Of a stretch of 43,067 bases of DNA, positions 3,343 through 26,825 are shown in pieces. Every line of letters starts with the position of its first letter. Positions within the stretch are counted from its first letter, which is position 1. The position numbers and the translations under genes are program-made. The notes beneath the pieces are model-generated. The model did not search any database. It was given only the letters and a program-made list of their open reading frames with translations, and was not told the DNA's origin. This DNA comes from Pseudomonadota bacterium (lineage in GTDB: Bacteria > Bdellovibrionota > Bdellovibrionia > Bdellovibrionales > JACTMU01): the NCBI GenBank assembly GCA_014584465.1, contig JACTMU010000021.1, positions 73,743-116,809 on the forward strand, written 5' to 3'.

Positions 3343-4377
3343 ATGAAAAAGTATCCTTGGCAAGAGCCCTTTCAGATCAGTGAGGCCCAGATTTCTCAGT
3401 GGGAGACCGAAATGGGATCCAGTTCGGACAGCCTCTTGTGCTGGTGTCTTGAAAAGCAGAAAATCCCAGAGCATGCCTACCTCAAGTGGGCTCAAGCCCT
3501 TTACGGCTTACCCATCCTCAAAGAGGACTACTTTGGTTCCGCCCTCGGAAAAGTTCGCTTTGATCTTGACAGCCATGGCCCGTGGAAGGCCCATCTTTTT
3601 CCCGTGGGTCAGTGGGAAGAGGTGCTTTTTCTTGCCTGTGTGGAGCCGCCCACAGAACTTAAGATCAACAAAGATTATCAACTGGTGCTGGCAGCGTGGA
3701 GTCATCTTCGACCATGTTGGGAGCAACGACATCCCGACACCCGTAAAGAGGAGTCGGTTTCCACATCGAAAAGAGCCGTCTCCCATGCGTTCAAGGAGCT
3801 TGATCTTCCTCCTGTACCCGAGAGCTCCCATCTGAAGCTTGAAACGTTCGAAGTTGAGAAGCCTGAGGAGCGAACTCTCGCTGTCGAGACTACGTTGACG
3901 CCACTACCTAAAAACAAGTTGAGCCACTATGAACGCACTCTTCTGGATATCGATCAGGTGCTAAATTCTATCCGAGTCTATTTTGATAAAGTCATAGTCT
4001 TTCGGTTCAAGAGCAGTTCTCTTTTTCCTATGAAGTGGGATGATTCGTGGAAACCACTCGGAGACCCTTCAAGTCTCAGAGTTAAGGTTGATTCACCAAG
4101 CATCTTTCGAACTTGTGTGACCTCACTTCATCCTTATCATGGCCGAATTGTACCTAATGCTGTGAACACTCAATTCTTCAACAACTGGAATGGATCTCAG
4201 ATTCCGGTTCATGCAACCCTGGTGCCGGTGATCAAAGAGAAAAAGGTCATTGCGTTGGTGATGGGCATCAAGCATACGGCGATGGATCACTCTGAACGTG
4301 TCCTACGCGACAGTGAGGAAGTTGCAAGAAAGATCGGTCACCTTTTGGTCGCCAATGGCCTTGGAGAGGCTGCCTAA
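3343..4377 (+). CDS. Protein of unknown function, 344 aa
   Basis: I do not recognise this soluble protein with certainty. The N-terminal 60 residues (SEAQISQWETE, then WAQALYGLPIL) loosely resemble the N-terminal domain of type II secretion/pilus ATPases, which reads an inter-subunit signal, but no Walker motifs follow, so it is not an ATPase. A charged linker spans about residues 125-195. The C-terminal half, from YERTLLDIDQVLNSIRVYFDKVIVFRF to the end, has the alternating pattern of a GAF-like sensory fold. No signal peptide or membrane segment is evident. The start ATG at 3343 has a nearby AGG. It diverges from the cysteine desulfurase and converges with the small secreted-protein gene across a long inverted repeat. 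The functional reading is weak inference. Confidence 0.7.
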   Translation: MKKYPWQEPFQISEAQISQWETEMGSSSDSLLCWCLEKQKIPEHAYLKWAQALYGLPILKEDYFGSALGKVRFDLDSHGPWKAHLFPVGQWEEVLFLACVEPPTELKINKDYQLVLAAWSHLRPCWEQRHPDTRKEESVSTSKRAVSHAFKELDLPPVPESSHLKLETFEVEKPEERTLAVETTLTPLPKNKLSHYERTLLDIDQVLNSIRVYFDKVIVFRFKSSSLFPMKWDDSWKPLGDPSSLRVKVDSPSIFRTCVTSLHPYHGRIVPNAVNTQFFNNWNGSQIPVHATLVPVIKEKKVIALVMGIKHTAMDHSERVLRDSEEVARKIGHLLVANGLGEAA

Positions 4378-4384
4378 CTTATTT

Positions 4385-4549
4385 AGTGTCTGGCGCGAAA
4401 CCTCATTCCGGTGAATTTGTCATAAGTTTTCCTTATACCTTTGTTGAGCCTCCTCGAGTTAGCGCCTCGGGCTAGCCCTTCGTCGGCTCGCCTCGGTATA
4501 AGCAAAACTTATGCAAATTCACTCGAAAGCAGGTTTCGCGCCAGACACT
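4385..4549. repeat. Long inverted-repeat element 1 (nested hairpin)
   Basis: The outer arms 4385-4403 and 4531-4549 are perfect 19-bp inverted copies (AGTGTCTGGCGCGAAACCT). Inside them 4411-4439 and 4495-4522 form a second, almost perfect inverted pair (GTGAATTTG..ATAAG..TTATACC). The loop and right inner arm contain a 53-bp core (4461-4513) that recurs in opposite orientation at 8329-8381 with 49 of 53 identities. The element fills the gap between two convergent genes and ends 2 bases before the stop codon of the minus-strand gene. It looks like a non-coding MITE- or REP-like element that could also serve as a bidirectional terminator; no T-tract is present. Confidence 0.85.
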
Positions 4550-4551
4550 AT

Positions 4552-5133
4552 CTAGGGATAGACGCTTCGACTGGCTTGCCAGAGCACTTTACGTTTGAGG
4601 TACTCAACCTGCTGAGGATGGCGTCGACTCTGCCACTGATGATCAATCTTGGAGACTTTATGGTGAAGTTCTTCGATTTTTTCATTTTCATAGGCACGTT
4701 GGATTTCAATCTGACGCTTGATGGTTGACTCGAGCTCTCTTTCAATGAGCTGACGGTGAAACTGTGTTGGAGATGCATAGTACTGGTTTGCCAACCGCTC
4801 GATCTTTTTTCGGTTTGCCGCCAACTCACGTTTCTTAGGATCTAAACCACGCAACCGCATGCGATAATCCTTCAAGCGTTGCCGATGAAGTAGTTTGGCG
4901 GTGATGCGAAAGAATTTCTCATGGTCCCGTTCCTTTATCTCCATGAGCTTTGCGTAGCGTTTGGGCTTTTGCAGCTTGTAGATTTCAAAGAGACGGCGAA
5001 GCTCCCATGGTTCTGGGGGAATGAATTTGCTCACTTTTTGACTCTTTGTGGATGTATTTGCGTGTGAAGAGTTTGCAGAGAACGTTGTGATGCTAAGGCC
5101 CATCAAGATGGCCCATTTCAAGATCTGATTCAT
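4552..5133 (-). CDS. Small secreted basic, helix-rich protein of unknown function
   Basis: This 193-residue protein has a clear Sec signal peptide (MNQILKWAILMGLSITTFSANSSHA, cleavage probably after SHA). The mature part is very rich in Lys, Arg, Glu and Gln with almost no glycine (LFEIYKLQKPKRYAKLMEIKERD, then RQLIERELESTIKRQIEIQRA), so it should be long alpha-helices or a coiled coil. It is probably periplasmic. The pattern resembles small periplasmic helical proteins of the DUF3106 or Spy type, but I cannot assign it to a family. It is a single-gene unit on the minus strand. Its stop codon sits immediately beside inverted-repeat element 1, which may end its transcript. Confidence 0.72.
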   Translation of the reverse strand: MNQILKWAILMGLSITTFSANSSHANTSTKSQKVSKFIPPEPWELRRLFEIYKLQKPKRYAKLMEIKERDHEKFFRITAKLLHRQRLKDYRMRLRGLDPKKRELAANRKKIERLANQYYASPTQFHRQLIERELESTIKRQIEIQRAYENEKIEELHHKVSKIDHQWQSRRHPQQVEYLKRKVLWQASRSVYP

Positions 5134-5349
5134 CTTGATACTATTTTACATGAATCTTCGAGATCTTGCACGAGTTAGGCTGATCTTCTGAAAGTTCCAC
5201 ATCTAAGGCCCAGTACAGTTCGACTCTGGTTTAACTGTTTACGAATTGATTTGGATTCACTCATGAACTCATTTGTCTCGCTGATCGTGCTATAGAATAT
5301 AGCACTGGTTTATTGGCTTGGGCTGGACCTAGCACTAGTGGTTGAACCA
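5134..5349. promoter_or_regulatory. Intergenic stretch with two perfect hairpins
   Basis: No gene is visible here. At 5287-5305 there is an 8-bp perfect inverted repeat with a 3-base centre (GTGCTATA-GAA-TATAGCAC). At 5334-5354 a 9-bp perfect hairpin (ACTAGTGGT-TGA-ACCACTAGT) contains the serA stop codon (5350-5352) and may be its terminator, although no T-run follows on the minus strand. The 5287 palindrome lies about 155 bases upstream of the small secreted-protein gene and could be an operator or another mRNA hairpin. Confidence 0.5.
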
Positions 5350-6564
5350 CTAGTAGAGAATCCGGGTGCGAATGCTGGTCGATAGCTTACGGACACGCTC
5401 ATTCACACTTTGCGCTTCGGCCTTCTCAAGATCCATAACCATGTAACCAATGTGGGCATCTGTGGAGAGATATTGGGCCGTAATGTTGGCCCCAACTGAA
5501 GAGACAATGCCATTGATCTCTTTGAGAACGCCAGGAACGTTGTGATGAATGTTGATGACTCGATGAACATTTTGGATGACCGGGAGATCCACGTTGGGAA
5601 AGTTGACAGCCCCTGAAGTTACGCCACTTCTGAGGTACCGAATGAAGCTCTCTGCCACCTCATTGCCAATGGCCTCTTGAGCCTCCTCGGTGCTTCCCCC
5701 AATGTGAGGAGTCAATATCACATTTGAAACTCCTTGGAGTTGAGATGAGAAGTGTTCCTCTTTGGAGTTGGGCTCTTCTGGAAAAACATCAATCGCAGCC
5801 CCACCCAAAAGATCTCCCTTTAAGGATTCGACAAGATCCTCAATGACCACCACGCTTCCACGGCTTGCATTGATGAGAAAACTTCCCCTTTTCATCAAGG
5901 AGAGTTCTCGCTTCGAAATCATCTTATGCGTCTCTTTAGTGGCGGGTACATGCAATGTGACAAAGTCCGAATTCTTTAGGAGCTCTTCGAGAGAATCCAC
6001 GGACTTTGAGTTTCCAAGAGGAAGCTTTTTGACAATATCAAAGAAGATGACCTTAAGTCCCATCGCTTCGGCAAGAATGCTGACCTGACTCCCGATGTGT
6101 CCGTAACCGACGATGCCAACGGTCTTTCCTCGAACTTCACGAGAACCTGTTGCACTTTTATCCCAGAGTCCTTGATGGGTCGAACGGTTGCGATCACCAA
6201 GTTGGCGCGCAAGCGCGATCATTTCGCAAATGATCAACTCCGCAACGCTTCGTGTATTGCTGTAGGGAGCATTGAAGACTGGAATGCCTAATTTATTTGC
6301 AGCTAGGGTATCGATCTGATTTGTGCCAATGCAGAAGGCACCTATGACTTTAAGATGCTTTGCTTCTTCAAGAATCTTCGAAGTGATTTGAGTTTTGGAT
6401 CGAAGACCCACAGCATCGAACTCTAGAATCAGGTTTCTGAGCTCCCCCTCATCCAGAGCGCCTCTTTTTTGAACAACATCAAATCCCACGGCTCGCAGAC
6501 GATCTGCAGCGACCGGGTGAATGCCCTCCAGCAATAAGATTCTTAAGATCTTTTGAGACTCCAC
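5350..6564 (-). CDS. serA: D-3-phosphoglycerate dehydrogenase
   Basis: SerA oxidises 3-phosphoglycerate with NAD+, the first step of serine synthesis. The 404 residues match the short, E. coli-like form. The Rossmann motif VGIVGYGHIG lies near residues 149-158, followed by an acidic FFDI for NAD+. The substrate-binding stretch FCIGTNQIDTLAA and the catalytic LTPHIGGSTEEAQ, with its essential histidine, are present. Residues from about 330 to the end form an ACT domain (INIHHNVPGVLKEINGIVSS), the serine-binding regulatory module. It diverges from the secreted phosphatase-fold gene across 68 bases. The extreme C-terminus (RTRILY) is as expected. This is a housekeeping gene with nothing unusual except that its stop codon lies inside a perfect hairpin. 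Confidence 0.96.
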   Translation of the reverse strand: MESQKILRILLLEGIHPVAADRLRAVGFDVVQKRGALDEGELRNLILEFDAVGLRSKTQITSKILEEAKHLKVIGAFCIGTNQIDTLAANKLGIPVFNAPYSNTRSVAELIICEMIALARQLGDRNRSTHQGLWDKSATGSREVRGKTVGIVGYGHIGSQVSILAEAMGLKVIFFDIVKKLPLGNSKSVDSLEELLKNSDFVTLHVPATKETHKMISKRELSLMKRGSFLINASRGSVVVIEDLVESLKGDLLGGAAIDVFPEEPNSKEEHFSSQLQGVSNVILTPHIGGSTEEAQEAIGNEVAESFIRYLRSGVTSGAVNFPNVDLPVIQNVHRVINIHHNVPGVLKEINGIVSSVGANITAQYLSTDAHIGYMVMDLEKAEAQSVNERVRKLSTSIRTRILY

Positions 6565-6632
6565 GTTATTACATTAGGTGAGCCCTTTTGATCTTGTCAA
6601 CTGTTCGATCGGAAGGTAGCGTTTGCCCTTAG

Positions 6633-8228
6633 ATGAAGCATCTTTGGCAAATCACCTTCTTGTTGATCTCAATGAGTTTTGCTCTGAGGTCTTTCTCTTA
6701 TGATCCATCCTACCCTTCGAAAGAGCCTCCGCAACTCGACGAGGAGTTTTATTGTCGTGTTGCACGTGAACTGGCTTCCAATTATGAGAGGGGAGATTTT
6801 TCTTGCAATGACGGTGGGGATTCCGACTTTCTCTTTTATCATGTCAAGAGAGTCCAAGGGGGGGAGGGTCGAGTTCAAGACAAACCCTCTTCGATTCAAA
6901 TTGCCTCATTCAATCTCCTCCATTTGGGCGATGATGTGGGACAACTGAAGGATCTAACGTTAGTTGCAGAGGTTATGAATCTTTGGGATGTGGTAGTGGC
7001 GAGTGAACTTAAATCACTTCCGGTGACAGGAAAAATTCAGAACCACAATCAGCATGCCTTGGAGCAACCAAGGGCTTGGTCGAGTCGCTTTTCCAAGTTG
7101 ATTTTGCCTGTCTACTATCAGCTTCTGGTTGCTCTGAGAGAGTTAGATTCAAGTTGGTCCCTCGTGCTGACCACCGTGCCCCAAGGAGATGGCCCCTACC
7201 GAGAACTCACGGGCTTCTATTTGAGAAGTTCTCGGGTGAAGCTCGTTGAGGATCGAGCAAAGTTGGTGGACATCGATCCCCATTACCGATCTCTTCTATT
7301 TCGAACTCCCTCCCAAATTTTTCTTCAAAGTGGATCGTTTCAGTTTTCGGTCGTGGCCACCCATATAAGATATACGGTTCCGCCCGACGATGTGAAACGC
7401 AAAAATGCGATGGCTCTTGCAAAGGAGATCCTGAGCAGAGATTCTCCCAAAGAGGTTAAGTACCTGCCATTTTTGAAGAGAGCAGATTACCAGCTTCGCT
7501 TTGCAGAGTTGAAGACCATTTTGACCTCTCTTTTTGAAAGAACCTCTAAGTCTGGAAATCGTAAGGTGATCCTTGCGGGGGATCTCAACTTGGACTCTTC
7601 CGGAAAGAGATTGGCCCTGCAGCACCATCCTGAGGTAAAAGGAACCGTGGAGATCGAGGCTCTTTGGGAGGAACTCCTAAGTCGTTTTGGATCGATCAAA
7701 CTCTTTGTGGATCAACCGACAACCATCTCTGAAAAAAGTGGGCGATCGAGCTCGTTGGACCATTTTATTGCAGATCCCGATGAAATAGAGGAGTGTGACT
7801 TTTCGGGCTCTGAGGCATGGGACTTTTCGTCCCTCTTTTTTGAGAGTGAATCCCGTCAGGAGCAAGAGAAAAAAAGTCCGAGAGTTCATCGAGTTCAATC
7901 TATGATTGCGCAGGCCGTGGGAGACTTAAGGAGGCAAGGAGCATCCTACTTTCTTTCAGAAGGAAGGAGCCATCGCTCTTTTTATGGGCTTACATTGGAC
8001 CGCATTGGAGAGCTTTCCGAGAGCAGTCCAGCTCTTGCTGAAGAATTTAGCAGAGACTCGCTGAAGGAAAAAGTTGAGGAGCGAGTTGTCTCTTTATTAA
8101 GGGCCAAACCCGGAAGTTCTGATTACCATCGGCGTTTTCGAGCAGTCTATCAAGTTTTGAGTGATCATCTTCCGATTGTAGTGAAATGTTGGGTTGACGG
8201 ACGTGCACCTCATCAGCTTCAATGGTAG
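6633..8228 (+). CDS. Secreted endonuclease/exonuclease/phosphatase-fold protein
   Basis: The N-terminus MKHLWQITFLLISMSFALRSFS is a Sec signal peptide, so the protein is exported. The fold follows from the motif order IQIASFNLLHLGDD (asparagine of strand 1), VVASELK (metal glutamate), ATHIRY, LAGDLNLDSS (catalytic D-x-N), SLDHFI and LSDHLPIVV (terminal catalytic DH pair). Together these are the DNase I/exonuclease III/sphingomyelinase superfamily signature. The substrate (DNA, phosphoinositide or sphingolipid) cannot be told from sequence. At 531 residues it is much longer than a minimal domain. A charged insert at about residues 400-470 (ESRQEQEKKSPRVHRVQ) splits the last two motifs and is unusual. 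It stands alone, downstream of the serA divergent promoter and upstream of inverted-repeat element 2. Confidence 0.82.
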   Translation: MKHLWQITFLLISMSFALRSFSYDPSYPSKEPPQLDEEFYCRVARELASNYERGDFSCNDGGDSDFLFYHVKRVQGGEGRVQDKPSSIQIASFNLLHLGDDVGQLKDLTLVAEVMNLWDVVVASELKSLPVTGKIQNHNQHALEQPRAWSSRFSKLILPVYYQLLVALRELDSSWSLVLTTVPQGDGPYRELTGFYLRSSRVKLVEDRAKLVDIDPHYRSLLFRTPSQIFLQSGSFQFSVVATHIRYTVPPDDVKRKNAMALAKEILSRDSPKEVKYLPFLKRADYQLRFAELKTILTSLFERTSKSGNRKVILAGDLNLDSSGKRLALQHHPEVKGTVEIEALWEELLSRFGSIKLFVDQPTTISEKSGRSSSLDHFIADPDEIEECDFSGSEAWDFSSLFFESESRQEQEKKSPRVHRVQSMIAQAVGDLRRQGASYFLSEGRSHRSFYGLTLDRIGELSESSPALAEEFSRDSLKEKVEERVVSLLRAKPGSSDYHRRFRAVYQVLSDHLPIVVKCWVDGRAPHQLQW

Positions 8229-8287
8229 CTTGCAAAGGCGCAGTTCGTAATGGCGACTGTTTTAAAATTGCTGAGGAGTGATAGCAC

Positions 8288-8415
8288 TAAATAGGGGCTG
8301 TCCGGTAATTCGCTTTTTGATCGATTTTGATAAGTTTTTCTTATACCGAGGCGGGCCGACGAAGGGCTAGCCAGAGGCGCTAGCAAAAATGGAATTACCG
8401 GACAGCCCCTAAATA
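8288..8415. repeat. Long inverted-repeat element 2, in the nosZ leader
   Basis: Arms 8294-8310 (GGGGCTGTCCGGTAATT) and 8393-8409 are perfect inverted copies. They are bounded on both sides by the direct hexamer TAAATA (8288-8293 and 8410-8415), which could be a target duplication. The interior (8329-8381) is the same 53-bp core as in element 1 but reversed; the flanking arms are unrelated to those of element 1. The element ends 45 bases upstream of the nosZ start codon, so it lies in the leader or promoter region of the nos operon. It is probably a non-autonomous repeat; whether it affects expression is unknown. Confidence 0.83.
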
Positions 8416-8460: not shown

Positions 8461-10419
8461 ATGAAGAAACAAGATGAAACCAAAGCAGATCAGCAGCAGG
8501 AGAGATCTTCCAAATCCGCAAAGGACGCACCCAACGGAGACGAAAATGGTTCAGGGATCTCGGGGTTTAAGGTCAGCCGCCGGGGGCTCATTGGAGGGGC
8601 GTTGGCTGGGACCGCAATGGGTGTCGTGGGCCTCTCCTCACTCCCAGAGATTTCATTTGCAGACAAAGGGAGCGATTCAGAAGTTCCTCCAGGTAAACTC
8701 GACGGTTACTACGGGTTTTGGAGTGGAGGTCAGTCGGGAGAGATTCGCGTGCTCGGCGTCCCTTCCATGAGGGAACTGAAGCGGATTCCCGTTTACAACT
8801 TTGATTGCACTACAGGCCATGGATTGACCGATCGATCCAAAGAGATGATGAGCGGACTGAAGTGTGGAGACACTCATCACGTCCATCTCTCCTACGACAA
8901 TGGAACCTATGATGGAAAGTACATCTATGTGAATGACAAACTCAATGGTCGTCTTGCCCGGGTTCGAATTGATTACCTTGAAACTGACTCGATTGTGAAT
9001 CTACCTCATTGTCAGGGGACTCATGGTATTTTTCCCATGAGGATCCGACGTCCTGGGAAGCCCTATTTGGTCTTTTGCAACTCGGAGTTTCGAAATCCGC
9101 TCCCGAACGAAGGGCAGGATCTTCACGATCCAAAGAAATATGGAGCTTTGCACACGGCCGTTGATGGTGAGACCATGGATGTGTTGTGGCAGGTCCGCGT
9201 ATCTGGAAATATGGATCTTTGTGCGACCGACTATAAGGGACTCTTTTCGATGGCCACATGCTACAACTCCGAAGAGGCAGTTACGTTGGCTGAGATGACC
9301 AAGGCGGATCGTGACTGGGCAGTCTTTTTCAATGTGGAAAAGATTGAGGAGGCCATTCGCAACAAAGCCTTCAGCTACATCGGAAAGAGTAAGGTCCCCG
9401 TCCTTGATGGAAGAAAGGGGACGCCCGGTGCAGGGAAGTACACACTCTACGTGCCAGTTCCAAAAAGTCCTCATGGGATCAACGTGGATCCGACGGGACG
9501 TTATGCCATCTGTTCTGGAAAACTGTCGCCAACCTGCACCGTCATTGATCTCGAAAAGGTGAAGCAGGCCTTTGCGGGTGAGATCAAACCTGAGGATTGC
9601 ATCGTCGCAGAACCAGAGGTCGGTCTTGGACCACTGCACACAGTTTTTGACGGCAAAGGCAATGCCTACACCTCCATCTTTATCGACAGTGTCATTACAA
9701 AGTGGAACATTGCCGAGTCCATCAAACAGTACGCGGGTGATAAAAAGGCGAAGCCCATTGTAGAGAAGATCGACGTCCACTATCAGGTGGGTCACACCAA
9801 CGCTTCCATGTCGGAGACGAAAGAGGCCGATGGGAAGTGGCTTGTAGCTCTCTGCAAATTTTCAAAGGATCGATTTTTGCCTGTGGGCCCAAGGCGATCG
9901 GACAACGATCAGTTGATTGACATTTCAGGGGACAAGATGAAGCTTGTTCATGATGGATCGGTCCATCCCGAACCTCATGATGCGGTGATTGTTCGTCGAG
10001 ACATCATTCAGAGTAAAACCAAAAAGGTCTATGATCCTAATGATCCTATGTTTGACAGTTATCGAAAGATGGCCAAGAAGGATGGAGTGGATCTCGGAAA
10101 AGAGAACAAGGTGGTTCGAAAAGGGAAAAACGTGACGGTCTACATGACCTCGGCGGCCCCCAATTTTGGACTGACCGAGTTCAAGGTCAAGAAAGGTGAT
10201 ATGGTCAAAGTGGTCATCACCAATTTGGATCAAGTTGAAGATCTCTCTCACGCCTTTACATTGGGTGGAGGGTATGACATCAATTTTGGGATTCATGCGG
10301 GTGAAACCAATTCGGTGACTTTTAAGGTCGATCGACGAGGCGTCTATTGGTACTACTGTTCTTGGTTCTGCCACGCTCTTCATCTGGAGATGAGAGGAAG
10401 GATGATTGTAGAGGGTTGA
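8461..10419 (+). CDS. nosZ: Nitrous oxide reductase NosZ, Tat-exported (clade I type)
   Basis: NosZ reduces N2O to N2 in the periplasm using a binuclear CuA site and a tetranuclear CuZ cluster. A twin-arginine signal (VSRRGLIGGALAG, Arg40-Arg41) follows an unusually long polar n-region of about 38 residues. The seven CuZ histidines are visible: two in DTHHVHL (139-140), then TH in CQGTHGI, KSPHGIN, GPLHTVF, VGHTNAS and HPEPHDA. The C-terminal cupredoxin domain has DLSHAF and the CuA motif CSWFCHALHLEM. The length of 652 is normal. A GAAGGAG ribosome site lies 15 bases upstream. NosZ leads the operon and its stop overlaps the nosR start (TGATG). In many clade I clusters nosR comes first, so this order is notable. 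Confidence 0.97.
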   Translation: MKKQDETKADQQQERSSKSAKDAPNGDENGSGISGFKVSRRGLIGGALAGTAMGVVGLSSLPEISFADKGSDSEVPPGKLDGYYGFWSGGQSGEIRVLGVPSMRELKRIPVYNFDCTTGHGLTDRSKEMMSGLKCGDTHHVHLSYDNGTYDGKYIYVNDKLNGRLARVRIDYLETDSIVNLPHCQGTHGIFPMRIRRPGKPYLVFCNSEFRNPLPNEGQDLHDPKKYGALHTAVDGETMDVLWQVRVSGNMDLCATDYKGLFSMATCYNSEEAVTLAEMTKADRDWAVFFNVEKIEEAIRNKAFSYIGKSKVPVLDGRKGTPGAGKYTLYVPVPKSPHGINVDPTGRYAICSGKLSPTCTVIDLEKVKQAFAGEIKPEDCIVAEPEVGLGPLHTVFDGKGNAYTSIFIDSVITKWNIAESIKQYAGDKKAKPIVEKIDVHYQVGHTNASMSETKEADGKWLVALCKFSKDRFLPVGPRRSDNDQLIDISGDKMKLVHDGSVHPEPHDAVIVRRDIIQSKTKKVYDPNDPMFDSYRKMAKKDGVDLGKENKVVRKGKNVTVYMTSAAPNFGLTEFKVKKGDMVKVVITNLDQVEDLSHAFTLGGGYDINFGIHAGETNSVTFKVDRRGVYWYYCSWFCHALHLEMRGRMIVEG

Positions 10420-18789: not shown

Positions 18790-18900
18790 GTGCCAGGTTC
18801 CGTTTGATGGACGCACCAAGACAAAATCGCGGAGGAGAGCATGTTGGAGAAACCCGGATCCGAAATTAACTTGCCGTGGCAAGCAAACGGAACCTGGCAC
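18790..18900. repeat. Long inverted-repeat element 3
   Basis: Perfect 17-bp inverted arms (GTGCCAGGTTCCGTTTG at 18790-18806 and its complement at 18884-18900) enclose about 77 bp of unrelated sequence. The interior holds a smaller perfect hairpin at 18870-18883 (CTTGCC-GT-GGCAAG). The element begins on the base after the PLD gene stop codon, and its last base is the first base of the stop triplet of the convergent DUF366 gene. It does not share the core of elements 1 and 2, but has the same architecture and location (between convergent gene ends). Confidence 0.83.
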
Positions 18901-26215: not shown

Positions 26216-26540
26216 CGTTGCACTCCTTTGACCGAAGTCTAGTGAGCATCCCTGCTCTACAGAATAGGACCTTGAAAGGTCGTCAAAGGGTTAGTGGCCA
26301 TTCAAAATCAGGACCTGCCTCATTTTCGCAACAACAGACATTTCGCGCCACATCAGATCCTCCTTGTTCCAAAGAGTTCCTGATGACAAGCTTGAGAGAG
26401 CTCTGTTATACAAAGTTCTATAATATTGTGGATTTTAAAGAGAATTCGGAGAATAGAAAAGACGGCAGGTGGATGAGTTGTGATCCCTCTGGTAGATGCA
26501 TCGATCGAGCCGAGATGAAATAGAGTGGTCTTTAAATCGT
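26216..26540. other. Gene-free stretch upstream of the tRNA locus
   Basis: I see no convincing gene. A TATAAT hexamer at 26419-26424 follows TTGAGA at 26392, but the spacing (21 bases) is too long for a standard promoter, so it is only a weak candidate for transcription towards the tRNA. From about 26475 onward the sequence is the diverged duplicate of the tRNA-Leu upstream region described separately. Confidence 0.4.
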
Positions 26541-26606
26541 GCGCGCGTGGCGAAATTGGCAGACGCACCAGCTTGAGGGAATTGTGGGGTTTACCGCAAT
26601 GCGCGC
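26541..26606 (+). pseudogene. Truncated tRNA-Leu-like copy
   Basis: Bases 26541-26579 match the 5' half of the intact tRNA-Leu(GAG) (acceptor strand GCGCGCG, D-arm GGCAGACGC, anticodon region CAGCTTGAGGG) with few changes. The 3' side of the anticodon stem and the normal T-arm are missing. Instead a 7-bp hairpin (26581-26600, ATTGTGG with CCGCAAT) is followed by GCGCGC (26601-26606), which can pair with the acceptor strand. It is not a functional tRNA by normal criteria, but it retains a closed tRNA-like outline. Confidence 0.68.
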
Positions 26607-26738: not shown

Positions 26739-26825
26739 GCGCGAGTGGCGAAATTGGTAGACGCATCAGCTTGAGGGGCTGACGCCCGCAAGGGTGTGCT
26801 GGTTCAAGTCCAGTCTCGCGCACCA
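26739..26825 (+). tRNA. tRNA-Leu, anticodon GAG
   Basis: The 87 bases form a type II tRNA with the long variable arm of tRNA-Leu. Acceptor strands GCGCGAG and CTCGCGC pair. The D-arm contains GGTAGACGC. The anticodon loop TTGAGGG lies between TCAGC and GCTGA, giving GAG. The variable arm is CGCCCGCAAGGGTG-like, the T-arm is GGTTCAAGTCC, and ACCA is encoded at the 3' end. The accessory island starts directly after it, so it is the probable integration site. Confidence 0.95.

Follow-up and report, generated by a model that had tools for sequence, protein, structure and literature searches.

Short palindromic elements with a conserved core and differing ends in a genome of the Bdellovibrionota

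Bacterial miniature inverted-repeat transposable elements (MITEs), such as RUP, ERIC/IRU, Correia/NEMIS and QMITE, are characterized, in the parts of two reports drawn on here, as short non-coding sequences with terminal inverted repeats and a target duplication, which are present in many intergenic copies and are moved in trans (PMC2229807, PMC10969869). Hairpins that share these traits, with movement in trans presumed, are found at two sites in a 43,067-nucleotide stretch of DNA (termed the window) from a Pseudomonadota bacterium that is placed in the Bdellovibrionota by GTDB (assembly GCA_014584465.1, 3.75 Mb in 120 contigs; the window is C66, contig JACTMU010000021.1, positions 73743–116809). 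These elements are MITE-like and of a known kind; the unusual part is a long-lived middle with changing ends. Both sites are probably insertions of non-autonomous MITE-like hairpins of ~163 bp, the core of which appears to be a cargo that was repeatedly re-housed in new ends, and hence with a new transposase. The literature on Bdellovibrio repeats, and on MITEs of bacteria in which a core is conserved but the ends differ, yielded no description of such an element, preprints and most subscription papers aside.

Elements 1 and 2 of the window represent two subfamilies with different ends, termed A1 and A2 (Table 1). The core word GCTAGCCCTTCGTCGG is found, with one mismatch or less, at 112 places in the genome of the window (the source genome), the A1 end at 155 places and the A2 end at 153 places, compared with none for the backward control of the core word or for the controls of either end. 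These numbers are far beyond chance. Copies were surveyed in 155 stretches around places among the matches listed (100 per word) together with BLAST matches, and the stretches contain 181 clusters of ends and cores. In 55 of these clusters a single core lies between two recognisable ends; the pair is A1/A1 in 27 cases, A2/A2 in 25 and mixed in three. One-ended clusters, end pairs without a recognisable core, the core alone and compound arrangements are not counted in the 55. The clusters with two ends and no recognisable core consist of eight A2 pairs, most of which retain part of the core, and six A1 pairs, three of which are 35-bp hairpins. An earlier note on this DNA proposed that the core is carried in different hairpin frames and suggested that the arms occurring with each core be listed. 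The listing, done here for the source genome, bears this out, as the core is not always joined to one arm; across the phylum, as shown below, the centre is likewise shared and the ends are not.

The six bases flanking the elements on the two sides are identical in 31 of the 55, where shuffled partners give a mean of 3.8 and a maximum of 10. The pattern TANNTA is present in 42 of the 55 left flanks and 39 of the 55 right flanks, and in both subfamilies. Target duplications of 6 bp are characteristic of DDE-type transposases, which cut the target with a stagger, and would not be expected from the Y1 enzymes that move repetitive extragenic palindromic (REP) and IS200/IS605 elements. The pattern here is as would be expected of a DDE transposase and not of a Y1 enzyme. 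A minimal palindrome, TATTTA-GTGCCAGGCAC-TATTTA, is present in the right flank of one copy (L035, C107:56346). It resembles an A1-type element cut to its end bases, or an excision footprint.

The consensus of 19 A1 copies of modal length and that of five A2 copies show one difference in a 91-bp core and arms that are about 55% identical. Thus the shared core is ~91 bp and not 53 bp as first noted. The 53-bp match itself is correct (window positions 4461–4513 and the reverse complement of 8329–8381, 49 of 53 identical), and only 53 bp are seen in the window because element 2 lacks 46 bp. The arms had also been termed unrelated. This is nearly right by eye, but they are alike in length (35–36 bp in both subfamilies) and there is a weak, significant similarity: the consensus right arms are identical at 19 of 36 ungapped positions, and alignments scored against shuffles give p 0.0003 for the right arms and 0.0012 for the left, or 0.006 (right) and 0.017 (left) when the terminal nine bases are removed.

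The 46 bp absent from element 2 are very probably an assembly artefact and not biology. When A2 ends are met from the low-coordinate side, 45 of 84 break after 91–97 bp (29 in one orientation of the element and 16 in the other), compared with four of 49 at this distance from the high-coordinate side, three of which are contig starts. Two contigs (C10 and C71) terminate, and three others (C25, C49 and C64) begin, at the same base. The orientation of an element on a contig is meaningless to the cell and the breaks are tied to the low side either way; the assembler must have made them, probably through a k-mer near 95 together with a gap that was joined imperfectly. The shortened A2 copies were also considered as genuine deletions or as truncated insertions, and this was rejected, as the break distance is fixed from the low-coordinate side whichever way the element points. 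The insertion of element 2, with its perfect duplication, is real, and its short middle is no evidence of anything biological. Several covariance-model hits of 79–84 bp lie at contig starts or ends in three relatives (G138, G134 and G052), so that the element interrupts their draft assemblies as well. A short MITE in a draft genome can thus be a product of the assembler.

Three hybrids carry one end of each kind. The hybrid at C97:27303 (A2..A1) has TAGTTA on both sides, is located within a contig of 157 kb and carries its own substitutions; because of these three properties it is not an assembly chimera. The flanks of the other two are TATTTA/TATTTC (C47:16837) and TAAATA/TACTTA (C81:341). 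Within the A1 subfamily the arms covary. Several pair types are found at pairs 4/160, 5/159 and 27/136, and alignment cells changed on both sides number 20, compared with 6.1 in shuffles (none of 500 reach 20) and 1–3 in slid controls, although related copies inflate such counts.

Relatives of the core are found in other species of the phylum. The exact core word is absent from a set of 84,980 species genomes (from which the source genome was possibly left out), a looser core pattern gave no match in viral contigs, and element 1 gave none in plasmids. BLAST with element 1 yielded weak matches in three of 195 other relatives, and in that search no member of the genus or family of the source genome came up. 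With a covariance model built from 38 sequences, 18 of these 195 genomes, belonging to several orders, were found to contain hairpins (19 of 196 with the source genome). Of 28 elements outside the model, 26 (in 16 genomes) have central 60 bases that resemble the core of the source genome, with scores higher than those of all, or almost all, dinucleotide shuffles; G002 L350 and G190 L325 do not. Fifteen of the 47 foreign loci fetched, being near-duplicates or cut copies, were left out of the identity set. Over 503 between-genome pairs, mean identity is 0.677 at the centre (0.592 when shuffled) and 0.564 and 0.560 in the outer 30 bases on the two sides (0.558 when shuffled). The same contrast is seen within genomes: two elements in G002 (L316/L334) have an identity of 0.85 at the centre and 0.60 at the ends, and two in G104 (L320/L340) have 0.75 at the centre and 0.53 and 0.50 at the ends. 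The total length of the hairpin is ~150–165 bp in most genomes while the arms change.

Three further features were observed among the foreign elements. In G064 (L328, L341) two core-like units are adjacent and in opposite orientation at two places in the genome. A second conserved pair of motifs was noted by eye in G104, G134, G002, G138 and G146 (L320, L335, L345, L349, L343, L327 and others); the left-arm motif is approximately GCTTGGTCTTTT and the right-arm motif approximately AAAATCC..TGCGC. In G002 a 6S RNA (84.4 bits) is found at L310 1701–1886, ~100 bp from a hairpin element.

Ends of the A1 type are also present on other centres. With one mismatch or less they occur in six of 368 genomes of the phylum, as single hits in three of the six, and they number 26 in G031 and 21 in G190. 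The A1-ended element of G190 is 178 bp long and has an unrelated centre, which scores 15 against the core of the source genome compared with 14.9 for shuffles. That of G031 is ~128–140 bp with another centre, and that of G245 has a third. Flanks of these elements are 6-bp TANNTA repeats where both are readable, and the repeats are exact in L367, L376, L368, L371 and L365. Genome G138 combines A1-like ends with a related core and has exact 6-bp repeats in L314 and L333. The elements of G134 have other ends, and TTA or CTTAG repeats in place of the 6-bp TANNTA. According to these flank comparisons, the type of target duplication follows the type of end and is independent of which core is carried. 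It had been remarked that ordinary MITEs keep their ends and vary the middle, and that the opposite is true here. The core is indeed kept while the ends differ, but A1-type ends carry other middles as well (G031, G190 and G245).

A different explanation would be one old MITE family with one transposase, in which the arms drift and stay complementary by compensatory change while the core is homogenised by gene conversion, and no ends are exchanged. The equal length and weak but significant similarity of the A1 and A2 arms agree with this, as do the compensatory changes inside A1, the use of TANNTA by both subfamilies, and an element in G134 that has an inner arm like that of A1. The hybrids, however, show exchange inside the core; A1-type ends with the same duplication are found on unrelated centres in G190 and G245; and the families in G134 are flanked by TTA or CTTAG and not by TANNTA, which indicates another enzyme. 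Divergence of a single family is unlikely on balance, but of the alternatives it is the one that survives best.

The core might instead be a functional structured RNA or a transcribed regulatory hairpin that is under selection and is spread by mobile ends. It is recognisable across families of the phylum and the folds are stable. Arm mismatches in copies of the source genome favour G-U pairs on the minus strand (40 to 13 in A1, 26 to 7 in A2), but no such bias is present in 32 foreign elements (36 to 39) or in A1 alignment columns (18 to 27), and most of the mismatches in the source genome are consensus positions shared by descent. As the answers are mixed overall, the bias is not used as evidence. 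No credible Rfam family was found; the only match to the hairpin is MIR7996, with 46.8 bits compared with a gathering score of 119 (six loci, E-value up to 5). A role as RNA thus appears rather improbable.

It was also suggested in the earlier note that the core is a mobile unit of its own, which inserts into the centres of existing palindromes. The three core-less 35-bp A1-type hairpins of the source genome could be taken as such palindromes, and the resemblance of A1 to A2 ends abruptly, in a symmetrical fashion, at the two borders of the core. However, the 35-bp hairpins consist of the left nine bases fused to the right 26, and have the appearance of products of deletion rather than of empty sites. 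There is no duplication seen at the core borders, and the near-constant total length in most genomes, despite the change of arms, is as would be expected if the hairpin were one unit. Core insertion is very doubtful.

As to the enzymes, A2-type ends were found in one other genome, G134, at two places. One is an A2-like element cut short after the first half of the core. The other end is located 50 bp before the start of an open reading frame of 607 amino acids that scores 204.2 bits, against a cut-off of 100, as a member of the IS1634 family. According to the portion of the source consulted (PMC6352166), the direct repeats of IS1634 elements measure 5–6 bp, and the 6-bp duplications of the present elements fit this. 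An IS1634-type transposase is the best candidate for the enzyme acting on A2 ends. The source genome has five genes of the IS1634 family over the cut-off. An A1-ended sequence of G190 is present in six identical copies, each of which is cut off by the end of a contig, and TAGTTA is found at one of the left ends as well as at one of the right ends. This suggests an autonomous element that was collapsed by the assembly, with its gene outside the assembly. A pair of A1 ends 2.8 kb apart on C73 was also considered as an autonomous element and was rejected, as it consists of two short hairpins. The arm exchange by a REP-associated (Y1, RAYT) transposase put forward earlier is scarcely credible: the elements are palindromes with many copies and are adjoined by very short palindromes such as GTGCCAGGCAC, but their insertion sites bear direct duplications of 6 bp (exact in 31 of 55), their length is 163 bp, and the sole transposase found at an A2-type end is IS1634, of the DDE type, although no search was aimed at Y1 genes.

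The process by which the core could be re-housed would begin with recombination or gene conversion within the shared core. This would pair a new end with an old one in the same element, a stage that the three hybrids resemble. Template switching or cruciform repair would then copy one arm onto the other, so that the ends become complementary again, a step proposed because the element is a long palindrome. The new family would finally spread by means of whichever transposase fits its new ends. The ends would thus act as a handle gripped by a DDE transposase in trans, with the core as the cargo, and different DDE transposases, one of them IS1634-like, would move the resulting families. Recombination products and covarying arms are seen among the copies; it is the arm-copying step, the identity of most of the transposases and the reason for retention of the core that we infer.

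Several observations weigh against this proposal. The second end of the IS1634 copy in G134 was not found, and only one A2 end is recognisable there. None of the five IS1634 genes of the source genome has A1 or A2 ends in the flanks fetched, and those with visible ends (L416, L424 and L411) show other ends, namely inverted ends CCTACATTCCG... and an end of the CCTAATTTGACCTGATTTTTATTG type. No intact autonomous element with A1 or A2 ends at both sides was found. The matching duplications around a hybrid could also arise by gene conversion in place, and the weak similarity of the A1 and A2 arms is compatible with gradual divergence in which the core was converted from time to time. Because the model used to find the foreign elements includes the core, conservation of the core among the hits is partly a result of this selection; the randomness of the ends between genomes is not due to it.

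MITEs are usually sorted by their ends, as the ends name the transposase. If the core outlives the ends, such sorting splits one lineage into many, and the conserved middle needs explaining, whether by binding of a host factor, by a structure that aids several enzymes, or by a transcript. Hybrid elements together with arm-to-arm copying also provide a testable route by which a MITE may change its transposase.

Table 1. Positions of the two hairpin elements and their parts in the window. The element 1 copy belongs to the training set of model R1.
Feature	Position	Strand	Description
Element 1	4386–4548	+	full-length A1-type hairpin, 163 bp, ends GTGTCTGGCGCGAAACCT, core forward; model R1 194.3 bits
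Element 1 left target duplication	4380–4385		TATTTA; 5 of 6 bases the same as the right one
Element 1 right target duplication	4549–4554		TATCTA
A1 left arm	4386–4421	+	36 bp
Shared core	4422–4512	+	ATAAG...CTTAT, 91 bp in A1 consensus; ends set by sequence; A1 and A2 consensus differ at 1 position
A1 right arm	4513–4548	+	36 bp, complementary to left arm
Element 2	8294–8409	-	A2-type hairpin, ends GGGGCTGTCCGGTAATT, core reversed; assembled length 116 bp, full-length copies 162 bp; model R1 37.5 bits on +, 26.3 bits on -
Element 2 left target duplication	8288–8293		TAAATA
Element 2 right target duplication	8410–8415		TAAATA; perfect match to left
Probable assembly join in element 2	8382–8383		full-length A2 match is 91 bases from 8292 plus 29 from the other end; 46 bp absent between

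Full-length copies are 162–163 bp, the terminal stems are perfect over 18 bp, and no open reading frame spans the elements in the window. Element 1 is situated between convergent open reading frames, ending at 4377 on the plus strand and at 4552 on the minus strand. The last three bases of its right duplication are TAG, the stop codon of the minus-strand frame 4552–5133. Element 2 lies between the end of an open reading frame at 8228 and the start of a nosZ-like gene at 8461 (Pfam nos_propeller). A protein scan of genome contigs with the open reading frame 6633–8228 gave no relative. A third hairpin is present at window positions 18790–18900, with ends GTGCCAGGTTCCGTTTG / CAAACGGAACCTGGCAC; its right end recurs at C109:96567, directly beside an A2 element. 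There is also a short palindrome, ACTAGTGGTTGAACCACTAGT, at positions 5335–5355, and L036 and L038 have like strings adjoining A2 elements. A single tRNA-Leu (gag) was called, at 26739–26825; a 41-base stretch 198 bp upstream (26539–26579) is 93% alike and has no call, and is perhaps a decayed copy.

Compared with known systems, the hairpins differ from bacterial MITEs in which part is conserved. Those MITEs are described, in the accounts cited above as far as they were drawn on, with ends that derive from one parent insertion sequence, whereas here the middle is conserved across the phylum and the ends change. The IS1634 family is alike in its 5–6 bp direct repeats (PMC6352166, in the portion used), and an A2-type end precedes an IS1634-type transposase by 50 bp in G134; the difference is that no intact copy has A1 or A2 ends on both sides, and such ends were not found with the five genes of the source genome in the fetched flanks. 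REP and REPIN sequences with their RAYT (Y1) enzymes are likewise palindromic and of high copy number, but REPs are 20–40 bp in the part of the source referred to (PMC3733652), and the present hairpins are 163 bp with 6-bp target duplications. In eukaryotes, the short interspersed elements (SINEs) termed CORE-SINEs, V-SINEs and DeuSINEs have a conserved domain within non-autonomous elements, as outlined in the section of the source used (PMC3899998). This group provides an analogy only: there is a conserved domain in non-autonomous elements, as here, but SINEs move via RNA and reverse transcriptase, and the present hairpins are DNA elements with inverted ends. The tails of such SINEs match different partner long interspersed elements (LINEs). 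It is quite possible, though put forward tentatively, that the present elements are phylum-wide hairpin parasites in which the selected unit is the core and not the ends; the core would persist by acquiring, time and again, the terminal repeats of different transposons, with arm copying restoring the symmetry each time, and would be a counterpart of the CORE-SINEs at the DNA level.

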